Positions 12,776 through 60,574 of a stretch of DNA of 64,000 bases are shown in pieces; within the stretch, counting starts at the first letter, position 1, and each line of letters begins with the position of its first letter. Under the pieces are notes generated by a model. The model was not told the DNA's origin. It ran no database searches and worked only from the letters and a program-made list of their open reading frames with translations. Location: NCBI GenBank assembly GCA_039680605.1, contig JBDKTA010000061.1, positions 1 to 64,000 of the forward strand, read 5' to 3'. This stretch comes from Planctomycetaceae bacterium (GTDB taxonomy: Bacteria; Planctomycetota; Phycisphaerae; SM23-33). The position numbers and the translations under genes are program-made.

Positions 12776-12790
12776 ATAGATAGGATCGCA

Positions 12791-13013
12791 AGCCGCTTCA
12801 GCGGCTTTTGTCCCGCCGGGAGGCGGGCTTAGCCCCGGCGTTTTACGCCGGGGGTCGAGAGCGGGTCTGTGACTCCCGCCCCAGCCCGCTTCAGCGGGCT
12901 TATTTGGAAGCCCGCTGAAGCGGGCTGACAAAGAGGCAGAGGCCGATTCGCGCCAGGGCTAAAGGCCCTGGCCTAACCGCGGCTGCGCCGCGACAAAGGC
13001 CGCTGAAGCGGCC
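12791..13013. repeat. Composite eight-hairpin cassette, copy 1
   Basis: A 223-bp block of eight consecutive hairpins in fixed order: AGCCGC/GCGGCT (12791-12806), CCCGCC/GGCGGG (12812-12827), CCCCGGCG/CGCCGGGG (12833-12853), AGCCCGC/GCGGGCT twice (12883-12900 and 12909-12926), GCCAGGGC/GCCCTGGC-type (12952-12972), CGCGGC/GCCGCG (12978-12992) and GGCCGC/GCGGCC (12998-13013). The same order occurs reversed at 20928-21149. It fills the gap between two lipoprotein genes; no coding potential. Confidence 0.92.
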
Positions 13014-13070
13014 TGCTTTATGTGCCGGCCTGTGATCGTCGCAGAAACTCGGCACAATGAGGATTTTGCC

Positions 13071-18548: not shown

Positions 18549-18652
18549 AAGAAGGCTCGCCATTGGCGGGCGCGGCGTTTGCCATTATCATCTTGTCCGC
18601 GCGTGCCGCGGCCGTCTCGCCCGCGGAAGACGTGCGTGAATTACTGCTGTGC

Positions 18653-18700
18653 GAAGGCAAGATGCCTTCGCCACGCGCGGGCGGGACGCCCGCGACACGA
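18653..18700. repeat. 48-nt bipartite hairpin
   Basis: Two hairpins in tandem, GAAGGC-AAGAT-GCCTTC and GCGGGC-GGGAC-GCCCGC type, joined by GCCACGC. The same 48-nt plan occurs at about 39327-39374 with compensatory stem changes. It lies 20 nt before the start of the URO-D-like gene. Confidence 0.85.
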
Positions 18701-20825: not shown

Positions 20826-20927
20826 GACCGCTCCACTACTGATAACGCAGCGGGCGCGTGAAAATTCAGGATCATGTCCAAATTGCGGAGACGTCCGGTT
20901 AAGACAGCAGCACTCGGGCAATGCGCA

Positions 20928-21149
20928 GGCCGCTTCAGCGGCCTTCGTCGCGGCGCAGCCGCGGTTAGGCCAGGGCTTCTAGCCCTGGCACACGTGACAG
21001 CGAATCGTTGCTTTTCAGCCCGCTTCAGCGGGCTTCCAGAAGCCCGCTGAAGCGGGCTGGGCAGAGACCGCGAAACCCCGCGTGGCTGCCCGGCGTAAAA
21101 CGCCGGGGCTAACCCCGCCTTCGGCGGGACAAAAGCCGCTAAAGCGGCT
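20928..21149. repeat. Composite eight-hairpin cassette, copy 2 (inverted)
   Basis: A 222-bp block with the same eight hairpins as 12791-13013 in reverse order: GGCCGC/GCGGCC, CGCGGC/GCCGCG, GCCAGGGC/GCCCTGGC, AGCCCGC/GCGGGCT twice, CCGGCG/CGCCGG, CCCGCC/GGCGGG, AGCCGC/GCGGCT. Inter-hairpin sequence diverges more than the stems. It occupies most of the 422-bp intergenic region between the divergent esterase and dehydrogenase genes; promoters must lie in the short flanks. Nothing else is recognised there. Confidence 0.92.
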
Positions 21150-21247
21150 TGCAGGCAGCCCACCGCCCCCAATCGTTTCTTGCTACGCGGGCGTGCTTGC
21201 CGGTACCATGCGCGGCCGTTGGTCCAACATACATTCAGGAGCGTCCG

Positions 21248-38156: not shown

Positions 38157-38298
38157 GTGCCACGCACAACTCCGTTGTGCGTGTCCCTGAACATTCAGAG
38201 CAGAACAGCTTGTCCTGCATCGGCCATTCTCATTTCCGCCGACGGTTCTTTCCTGGCCCAGGGCACATTGGCACGCACAACGGAGTTGTGCGTGGCAC
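38157..38298. repeat. Inverted pair of CACGCACAAC/GTTGTGCGTG hairpins
   Basis: Two hairpin units (38161-38183 and 38272-38294), each a 10-bp stem with a 3-nt loop, are arranged as an inverted pair with flanks GGGTGC and GGCACCC. A third unit lies at 47542-47564. The 300-bp gap 38152-38451 holds only this pair and unassigned sequence. Confidence 0.9.
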
Positions 38299-39210: not shown

Positions 39211-39535
39211 TACCGGGGGCCTCGCCCCCGGCTATGTCCTTATCGCCCCGCTGGGGGCGAAGATAACTCGCGGGCGGGACGCCCGCGGGACACGCGGACG
39301 GACGTCCGCTTACACGAACAGCAGACGAGGGCAAGATGCCCTCGCCACGCGCGGAGGGGACGTCCGCGACACGGATAACAGGCATGGGCGGGACGCCCAT
39401 GCCACACAACAAGAGCATGGGCGAGACGCCCATGCCACACGGCAAGAGCATACGCGAGACGCCCATGCTACTCACGGGGAAGATGCCCGTGCTACGGGGG
39501 ACGCCCGTGCCACTGCGGACGCCCGTGATACGGGT
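39211..39535. repeat. Array of about ten related hairpins (GGGCGRGACGCCC family)
   Basis: Successive short palindromes with stem-GAC/GAT-stem centres, each followed by a TGCCAC-like tag: CCGGGGGC/GCCCCCGG, CGCCCC/GGGGCG, CGCGGGC/GCCCGCG, GCGGAC/GTCCGC, CGAGGGC/GCCCTCG, CGCGGA/TCCGCG, CATGGGC/GCCCATG (twice), a degraded CATACGC/GCCCATG, ACGGG/CCCGT and two partial ones. Stem sequences vary while pairing is kept. It fills the gap between the DUF6171-like and GH51 genes; no gene there. Confidence 0.88.
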
Positions 39536-47427: not shown

Positions 47428-47613
47428 CCTCAGCGTCCTCAGCGACCTCAGCGGCGACAAAATCCTCTTTACCTGCGCCGCGATTTTGTGGATAAAGCCG
47501 ATTCGCAACGTGCGTTCAGGATGCATGGGCGAGACGGGTGCCACGCACAACTCCGTTGTGCGTGTCCCTGGCAGTCAGTCGAGGTTCAGGGAGCATGGGC
47601 GAGACGCCCATGC
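47428..47613. repeat. Cluster of three repeat types
   Basis: 47428-47458 is a CTCAGCGNC 9-nt array (three units), 47542-47564 a CACGCACAAC/GTTGTGCGTG hairpin, and 47593-47613 a GCATGGGCG-AGA-CGCCCATGC type hairpin of the family seen at 39211-39535. All lie between the terminator and the URO-D-like gene. Confidence 0.85.
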
Positions 47614-59029: not shown

Positions 59030-59345
59030 ACTCACCGCAGAGGTCGCAAAGAACGCGGAGAAGAGAGAATGAATCGAGGGAAGTCCGGGTGCCATGGCGG
59101 CCGTTTTCAAGCCGCCATGTCTTCGCCCCGTCAGGGGCGACAGAAATCACAAGAGAGTCCTGCAATGATGGAGGCGCAGGGGGGCGAACCCAAGCATAGA
59201 ACCGCGGTGATAACAACCGCGTCGAGCATATTAGCTTCGCCAGAGGCTACGCAGGACAAGAGCTCGACCGCCAACGTGGCGCATCGGTGTTTCTCCCCGT
59301 CTCTCATCTTCTTCCTCTGCGGTCTCTGCGACCTCGGCGGTGAAA
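59030..59345. repeat. Inverted pair of 9-nt arrays abutting the RNase H stop
   Basis: Left arm about 59030-59066 (GACTCACCGCAGAGGTCGC then AAAGAACGCGGAG) and right arm about 59309-59345 (TTCTTCCTCTGCGGTCTCTG then CGACCTCGGCGGTGAA) are complementary in the CGCAGAGNN family. The right arm ends 1 nt before the RNase HI stop codon. Interior 240 bp contains GCCATGGCGGCCG and remnants related to other arms (CTCGACCGCCAACG) but no gene. Confidence 0.88.
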
Positions 59346-59346
59346 A

Positions 59347-59811
59347 CTACAGGACGTCGCCGACGTTCTTTTTGAAATCCAGCGCGCGGTTGACCAGGTC
59401 GTCGGCTTCGGTGTTCTGCTCTCGGCGGACGTGGCGGTATTCTACGTGTTTGAATTGCTCGGCCAGTGCGCCGGCCTGTTCGAACAGGGGGCGCAGGCCG
59501 GCGTTCTTGACCCGGTAGCGGCCGGTCATCTGGCGGACCATCAGCTCCGAGTCGCTCAACACCAGGACCTTTTGTGCGCCGAGCTTGGCGGCGGTCTTGA
59601 AGGCGTTGAGCAGGCCCTGGTATTCGGCGATGTTGTTGGTGGCGTGTCCGATGAAGATTCCGGCTTTGTAGATGGCTTTGCCGGTGGCGGCGTCTTTGAT
59701 GACGACTCCGGCGGCGGCCGGTCCGGGGTTGCCTCGGGCGCCGCCGTCGATGCAGGCGATCACGTCCGGGTGCAGGGGTGGGGTGGCGGCGGGGGATGCA
59801 TCGGGGGCCAT
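59347..59811 (-). CDS. RNase HI family ribonuclease
   Basis: 154 residues from MAPDASPAATPPLHPDVIAC (GAGGCAGG before the ATG). RNase H fold with the acidic catalytic residues: Asp in IACIDGGARGNPGPAAAGVV, Glu in NNIAEYQGLLNAF, Asp in KVLVLSDSELMVRQMTGRY, and Asp in EQNTEADDLVNRAL. It hydrolyses the RNA strand of RNA-DNA hybrids, so it may clear primers or R-loops. The short helical variant (no basic protrusion) is the RnhA-like type common in PVC bacteria. Only 10 bp separate it from the zinc-ribbon protein gene upstream, indicating an operon. Confidence 0.92.
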   Translation of the reverse strand: MAPDASPAATPPLHPDVIACIDGGARGNPGPAAAGVVIKDAATGKAIYKAGIFIGHATNNIAEYQGLLNAFKTAAKLGAQKVLVLSDSELMVRQMTGRYRVKNAGLRPLFEQAGALAEQFKHVEYRHVRREQNTEADDLVNRALDFKKNVGDVL

Positions 59812-59821
59812 AGAACCTGCC

Positions 59822-60574
59822 TCAGGCCTTGGTGGCTTTTTCGGCCTGTTCCTGCAGGTAGAGGATTCGCCCGCAGTTGTCGCAGGTTCGGATCTGGTCG
59901 CGGACGCGCAGGGCGTTGACGTGCTCGGCTCGCAGGCCCATAAAGCAGCCGCCGCAGACATACGTATGCGGCGGTTTCTTTCCGTGGATCTCGATGACGG
60001 CCATCGCCTCGCCCTCGTACCTTCCGACGACGCGGTTGAAGAGGTTGAGGGCCTCGGGTTCCACATCGCCGGCCAAGGCGTCGCGTTTGGCGAGCAGTTC
60101 GCTCTCCATGGCCGAGAGGCGTTCGATTTCTTCGGCGCTGGCCTGGCGGATCTGTTCGAGCCGGGTCTGGGCGGCGGCGAGGGCTTCCTTGGCCTTGTCG
60201 ACTTCGCCCTTGCTGCTTTCCATCTGGCTCATGACGGCCAAGGCTTCTTCTTCGAGCTTGGCGTTGTCGGCCTTGAAGGTGTTGATCTCGGTCAGGACGG
60301 CGGCGTATTCTTTATTGGTCTTTGCGGTGTTGAGGTTTGCCCGCAGCTTGGCGACGTGCTCTTCCTTGGTCTTGAGGTCGAGGTCGAGCTGGTCGGCGCG
60401 TTTGAGGCGGTTGATGTGCTGCTGGTTCTGGAGGTCGAGGGTCTGTTGGGCCTGATCGATCTTGCGTTGCTGGATGGCCACGGCGTTGTGCTGCACCCGC
60501 AGTCTGCTTCGGACATGAGCCAAGTCGCGTTCGACCGTTTGAAGCTTGAGCAGTCCTGCCAGCGTTTGCGCCAT
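59822..60574 (-). CDS. Coiled-coil protein with C-terminal C4 zinc ribbon
   Basis: 250 residues from MAQTLAGLLKLQTVERDLAH. Residues about 5-180 are a long coiled coil with heptad hydrophobics (LQTVERDLAHVRSRLRVQHN ... KLRANLNTAKTNKEYAAVLT), and a zinc ribbon closes the protein: YVCGGCFMGLRAEHVNALRV and RTCDNCGRILYL. This is the widespread 'C4-type zinc ribbon domain' family (CT398-like) found in many bacteria; binding partners in chlamydiae link it to secretion and sigma-54, but its general role is not settled. It is the first gene of a unit with RNase HI. Confidence 0.9.
   Translation of the reverse strand: MAQTLAGLLKLQTVERDLAHVRSRLRVQHNAVAIQQRKIDQAQQTLDLQNQQHINRLKRADQLDLDLKTKEEHVAKLRANLNTAKTNKEYAAVLTEINTFKADNAKLEEEALAVMSQMESSKGEVDKAKEALAAAQTRLEQIRQASAEEIERLSAMESELLAKRDALAGDVEPEALNLFNRVVGRYEGEAMAVIEIHGKKPPHTYVCGGCFMGLRAEHVNALRVRDQIRTCDNCGRILYLQEQAEKATKA

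Follow-up and report, generated by a model that had tools for sequence, protein, structure and literature searches.

Inverted four-hairpin cassettes in a Phycisphaerae genome as probable non-autonomous derivatives of an IS200-like element

Described systems and the two cassettes of the window

Previous studies described REPIN/RAYT systems (REPtron, BIME; PMC3116915, PMC3733652, PMC6006769), which resemble the locus analyzed here in that inverted palindromic doublets are dispersed between genes, units of the doublet also flank a Y1 (HUH) transposase gene, the stems carry compensatory changes and mobilisation is presumed to occur in trans. They differ in the half of the doublet, which here consists of four ordered hairpins (about 110-130 bp) rather than one REP of 20-40 bp; in the foot, with (T)CAG or TTAG preceding the stems and no GT[AG]G apparent; in the enzyme, which here fits the IS200 model and not the REP-transposase model; and in the overall plan, apparently an element with defined ends, U-tnpA-U', as opposed to a fixed gene with REPs nearby. 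The canonical RAYT/TnpA_REP (class 2, Y..NP motif) was ruled out by the Y---Q motif, the result with model NF047646 and the foot. CGTC-tagged REPs, a family without a transposase (Di Nocera 2013, PMC3733652), were also considered and rejected: many copies do have GTC before hairpin H2, but the tag is variable here.

The IS200/IS605 family (IS608, ISDra2) shares with the present system the TnpA fold, the HUH and Y---Q signature and terminal DNA hairpins. In the IS608 type, each end has a single hairpin and the two are not inverted, whereas the ends here are long inverted repeats of four hairpins and there is no tnpB, since the interior of ~450 bp has room for tnpA only. No target-site duplications could be demonstrated; IS200-type enzymes are not known to make any. 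Derivatives of this family such as PATEs (named in PMC3119063) are likewise non-autonomous forms that retain the ends only, and the likeness to MITEs and other non-autonomous derivatives extends to both ends being common with the autonomous element, a lost transposase and a deletion intermediate (locus L121, below). The cassettes are outside canonical REPIN/RAYT (by enzyme class and foot) and canonical IS200/IS605 (by end anatomy), though they would work like both. With good confidence, we regard them as REPIN/MITE-like non-autonomous derivatives of a small IS200-like U-tnpA-U' element, most likely mobilised in trans by TnpA.

The window, i.e. the whole 64,000-nt stretch of DNA analyzed, contains two cassettes of ~225 bases each, copy 1 at 12789-13015 (+) and copy 2 at 20926-21151 (-). 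As the earlier note had seen, both carry the same palindromes in the same order, with copy 2 reversed. It had also spoken of a cassette of eight hairpins; eight are indeed present, but they are not independent, and each cassette repeats one four-hairpin unit as an imperfect inverted pair U-U' in which U' is the reverse complement of U. The unit U runs H1-H2-H3-linker (about 30-40 nt)-H4, about 110-130 bp in total, and a pyrimidine-rich stretch closes the linker ahead of H4 in most copies. H8, H7, H6 and H5 match H1, H2, H3 and H4, respectively, in reverse complement, with some drift, and a few nt separate H4 from H5. H1 and H4 are alike, with CCGCTTCAGCGG in the core of both, and the feet are (T)CAG before H1 and H4 and TTAG before H3. 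The features are as follows.

12789..12902, + strand: copy 1 unit U, left half, H1-H2-H3-linker-H4 (cmsearch R1, 106.6 bits)
12790..12807, + strand: copy 1 H1, AAGCCGCTTCAGCGGCTT, 8-bp perfect stem with a 2-nt loop
12812..12827, + strand: copy 1 H2, CCCGCCGGGAGGCGGG, 6-bp stem
12833..12853, + strand: copy 1 H3, CCCCGGCGTTTTACGCCGGGG, 9-bp stem, TTAG ahead
12883..12900, + strand: copy 1 H4, AGCCCGCTTCAGCGGGCT, 8-bp stem, C ahead (TC in most copies)
12907..13015, - strand: copy 1 unit U', right half, inverted, H5-linker-H6-H7-H8 (cmsearch R1, 107.1 bits)
12909..12926, - strand: copy 1 H5, reverse complement of H4
12952..12972, - strand: copy 1 H6, counterpart of H3
12978..12992, - strand: copy 1 H7, counterpart of H2
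12997..13014, - strand: copy 1 H8, counterpart of H1
21039..21151, - strand: copy 2 unit U (cmsearch R1, 107.8 bits)
Copy 2 hairpins of U, - strand: H1 21133-21150, H2 21114-21128, H3 21089-21107, H4 in 21039-21059
20926..21036, + strand: copy 2 unit U' (cmsearch R1, 111.2 bits)
Copy 2 hairpins of U', + strand: H5 in 21016-21036, H6 20969-20989, H7 20949-20963, H8 20927-20944

The covariance model of one half matches all four halves (107-111 bits), and the edges, at 12789/13015 and 20926/21151, terminate on C|AG followed by H1. The hairpin density is far above chance: per 227 nt, perfect hairpins (stem of at least 6) number 8 in copy 1 and 7 in copy 2, where H4 and H5 are scored together as one 21-bp stem, compared with 0-2 in 1032 of the 1043 other 227-nt stretches of the window. 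Folded as single-stranded DNA, the two blocks give z = -11.9 and -8.7. Copy 2 lies, as claimed, between divergent genes, for a BD-FAE alpha/beta hydrolase and a zinc-type dehydrogenase; the lipoprotein character of the genes beside copy 1 found no support in Pfam, where they have no match.

The maximum among the other stretches, 6 stems, belongs to another array of palindromes, near 39.2 kb. This array consists of perfect palindromes, CGCGGGCGGGACGCCCGCG and GCATGGGCGAGACGCCCATGC among others, and covers 39213-39435 of the window, with further places at 18651-18694 and 47593-47613. Because GCATGGGCGAGACGCCCATGC also flanks a different Y1 gene of the same genome (G000:C4:19439-19612, L050), the array probably represents a distinct REP family that has an enzyme of its own. 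A 23-nt palindrome, CACGCACAACTCCGTTGTGCGTG, occurs three times in the window (38161-38183, 38272-38294 and 47542-47564), two of the copies being inverted and about 110 bp apart. Y1 hits in the genome total 15, and one of its Y1 genes (L042, region of G000:C15:142000-142335) lies between near-identical two-hairpin copies of ~70 bp (CCGGGGGCTCACGCCCCCGG ... TCGGCCCGTCGGGCCGA) that are direct, not inverted.

Further copies, and a transposase between the same ends

A covariance-model search of the genome and its relatives, which the earlier note had proposed, recovered further copies with covariation far beyond what composition gives. The unit model was built from 17 units and has 31 base pairs. 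In the 5.2-Mb genome it found seven U/U' cassette pairs, at C61 (two), C50, C9, C16, C25 and, degenerate, at C58, plus an eighth pair around tnpA on C59; single units occur on C46, C47, C36 and C4. A blastn search of the same genome with copy 1 recovered three more full-length copies (C50, C9, C16) and partial copies. The single units of C36 and C47 (L009, L006) have a variant after H3, AGGCCTCACCTTTACCCACAT, and each lies exactly 185 bp from its contig end; comparison of these two contig ends revealed no overlap.

Because H5-H8 are the reverse complements of H4-H1, a cassette also matches itself in reverse. The inversion of the two copies relative to each other is nevertheless real: stem identity across cassettes is 89% for left with left halves, 81% for right with right and 74% for left with right, and the left/right assignment as observed is the best among 32 distinct arrangements. 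The two halves are therefore distinguishable, so that a relative orientation does exist, and since they keep their identities across cassettes, they have travelled together.

Among the 298 genomes of the class, units are present in 35, and the copy numbers of U in these genomes are to be read as at least the numbers counted. By our count the fetched loci hold 33 close pairs, all with the convergent layout U(+)/U'(-). At seven loci from several genomes (L105, L126, L134, L135, L138, L139 and L148) U and U' overlap, and one central hairpin represents H4 plus H5.

On C59 of the genome a Y1 tnpA gene (PF01797, 59473-59922) is bracketed by U (59335-59456) and U' (59901-60028). In the fetched loci, eight U(+)...U'(-) pairs stand several hundred bp apart, and in seven of these wide pairs, from seven genera (this one and six others of the class), an intact-looking tnpA lies inside, its last codons often within H5; the eighth, L111, encloses another palindrome family and no tnpA. 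At a threshold of at least 150 bits, tnpA was present in 17 of the 298 class genomes, mostly as a single copy, and 14 of the 17 also carry U, as against 21 of the 281 without tnpA (Fisher p = 3.5e-12, a value that is only indicative because the genomes are related to each other). No strong tnpA match was obtained in 21 of the 35 genomes with U; incomplete MAGs, loss of the gene or a diverged enzyme are possible reasons.

In the TnpA alignment H57, H59, Y117 and Q121 are invariant, and the enzyme of this genome reads THVH and YVRNQRQRH. Against NCBIfam models, the proteins match NF033573 (transpos_IS200) with E values of 1e-14 to 1e-17, while the REP-transposase model NF047646 gave no match or E 0.11. 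The predicted structure of a relative (L163, pLDDT 87.6) matches ISDra2/IS608 TnpA at E ~1e-8 and TnpA_REP 4er8 at E 7e-5; the fold, as modelled, is that of an IS200 TnpA.

The claim that the block is mobile or copied as a whole, as a non-autonomous element, was supported by the further cassettes, the covariation and the transposase between the same ends, and it is also backed by a cassette that carries a transposase relic and by an empty site. At L121 (G033:C129:72305-72747) a U-U' pair has about 200 bp between its units, and one minus-strand frame of this interior encodes YVRNQREHHSSNEAHDRLERIEP, the C-terminal part of TnpA. The homologous place in a congeneric species (G010:C163), both of whose flanks align at 81-82%, lacks the block; the alignments stop 20 and 38 bp short of the cassette and have 3 bp between them in the congener. 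This single comparison, with a junction that is not base-exact, could in principle reflect either insertion at L121 or precise deletion. Two other searches for an empty site were negative, one (G022 C207 against G030 C154) finding unrelated DNA at the spot and the other (L120 and L144 against G022) aligning one flank only.

Hairpin level, mechanism and alternative explanations

In an alignment of 123 units, which was fitted to the structure, 97.7% of cells pair and 632 cells show double-sided changes, compared with 155 +/- 9 in shuffles. A structure-free MAFFT alignment of 17 units gave 53 double-sided changes against 20.5 +/- 3.2. Arm-to-arm correction of a palindrome during replication could also yield covariation, so that covariation alone does not prove selection. 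Conservation stops abruptly at the C|AG of H1 (1.87 bits for A and 0.54 for C), which fixes the outer edge of the element; the T at -1, outside H1, is weak (0.37 bits), and positions further out have at most 0.16.

RNA helices usually tolerate many G.U pairs. The stem cells of the cassettes, one marginal pair left out, comprise 3298 Watson-Crick pairs, 50 G.T pairs (1.5%) and 67 other mismatches, and this near absence of G.T pairs supports the view that the stems act as DNA rather than RNA hairpins. It argues against a structured RNA, the alternative that the earlier note had left open. A duplicated regulatory, terminator or mRNA-stabilising array would account for the very stable folding, the strong covariation and the intergenic placement. 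However, G.T pairs are fewer even than other mismatches, the unit forms an inverted doublet and is used symmetrically in both orientations, an Rfam scan of the window returned only a tRNA with no match for the cassettes, and in seven genera a transposase gene lies between U units; we consider this explanation very unlikely.

A different possibility is that the ends persist because they serve the host, with mobility only ancestral; for BIMEs, roles in transcription termination or as sites for gyrase, IHF or Pol I have been proposed. In favour of this reading, binding of host proteins by REPs is known (PMC6006769), the cassettes have a low copy number, tnpA is mostly single-copy and some genomes have U but no tnpA. 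Scattered positions, diverged linkers, the empty site in the congener, the relic-bearing intermediate and the co-occurrence with tnpA speak against it, and we hold it to be improbable. That solo REP-family palindromes merely accumulated side by side, their order being coincidental or the result of tandem or segmental duplication of one locus, is scarcely credible: H1 does resemble H4, and mosaic REP clusters (BIMEs) are common, but one covariance model matches the four-hairpin unit in 35 of 298 class genomes, order, spacing and edge are conserved across genera, left and right halves keep their identity from copy to copy, and the flanks have no conservation past the edge.

Returning to the mobile-element reading, the full element would be U-tnpA-U', with compound inverted ends of four hairpins each and a tnpA that would encode a HUH/Y1 single-strand DNA transposase of ~150 aa; a cassette would have arisen by loss of tnpA, which would leave the two ends back to back. 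We infer that TnpA acts on the U and U' ends by binding their hairpin(s), along a single-strand route, and that transposition itself takes place. Wherever the region is exposed as a single strand, such as on the lagging-strand template, the ends would fold into DNA hairpins, TnpA would bind one or more of these and cut at the C|AG edge, and the unit would be excised or copied and then joined elsewhere. On cassettes without tnpA, the enzyme would most likely act in trans. The four hairpins per end might allow a larger synaptic complex to form, or some of them might serve the exposure of single strands or protection.

A wider family of hairpin-flanked TnpA_Y1 genes

Scanning GTDB contigs with the alignment of the enzyme yielded 80 loci. 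The arrangement U...tnpA...U' is recognisable in Phycisphaerae, Blastocatellia, Terriglobia and Pyrinomonadaceae and weakly in Sumerlaeota; in Acidobacteriota and Sumerlaeota it is weaker than in Phycisphaerae, and more distant tnpA relatives have other palindromes. Where enough flank was available (70 loci), the density of perfect stems of 8 bp or more is 4.24/kb within 300 bp of tnpA as against 0.29/kb beyond 700 bp, and such stems stand on both sides of the gene in 39 of the 70 loci compared with 0 of 62 control windows. Y---Q--HH is found in 70 of 79 loci, and WQ in nearly all.

Quentin et al. (2018, PMC6006769, Table 1) defined TnpA_Y1 subclass 1.2 by the signature DH[IV]H, WQ, Y---Q--HH and a length of about 148 aa, and described it as without REPs or insertion-sequence properties, generally without terminal structures and found mainly in Cyanobacteria and Bacteroidetes. 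The DHVH, WQ and Y---Q--HH motifs, the length of ~150 aa and the low copy number of the enzymes studied here agree with this subclass, to which they would be assigned by motif only; the genes differ in being flanked, across many phyla, by hairpin clusters and in occurring in Planctomycetota, Acidobacteriota and others. Class 3 of the same study (NHVH, W[TA], YV[VI][AENY]EQ, ~178 aa) was our first lead on the grounds of taxonomy, its hosts being Planctomycetes and Acidobacteria as here, and of atypical structures; it was dropped, as most enzymes here have DHVH, WQ, Y---Q--HH and ~150 aa.

The genome G022 has a second system of unrelated sequence and the same plan, with dozens of inverted cassettes of ~200 bp and a tnpA (HFH...YIQNQQEHH) flanked by cassette halves of that system. 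Cassettes of this second family were seen in G022 and G030 (L263, L144:1728-1959, L264-L272; more than 30 blastn places), with hairpins GTCCCGAAGGGAC and TTAGCCGGGG...CCCCGG that are unrelated to U. The sister system points to the possibility that subclass 1.2 is a widespread mobile class. Tentatively, this class may be characterised by inverted ends made of several ordered hairpins, on which TnpA would assemble as several subunits, and by lineage-specific end sets and non-autonomous cassettes, which could account for a large and so far unassigned part of the palindromes dispersed in Planctomycetota, Acidobacteriota and Cyanobacteria. Other palindromes were also observed beside tnpA genes: those of the AGTCCGCGCAGGCGGACT / AACCCGCCTGCGCGGGTT type flank Y---Q--HH genes of Cyanobacteria (L210, L218, L220, L225, L229, L239, L240), and tnpA relatives from unrelated phyla (L206, L209, L213, L216, L221, L227, L230) have common flanking palindromes of the CCCAGGGCAACGCCCTGGG type.

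These results connect an otherwise unassigned class of palindromic repeats in Planctomycetota with a transposase, describe how its ends are built and point to a likely source. They also contradict published work according to which IS200-like Y1 enzymes carrying Y---Q--HH lack associated REPs and terminal structures. The scarcity of G.T pairs suggests a simple marker by which DNA-level hairpin families may be told from RNA families in comparative data. Four distinguishable hairpins per end are conserved across genera while the linkers drift, and because the IS608, ISDra2 and TnpA_REP systems that have been studied use one hairpin per end, which of the four is bound or cut becomes a clear mechanistic question.
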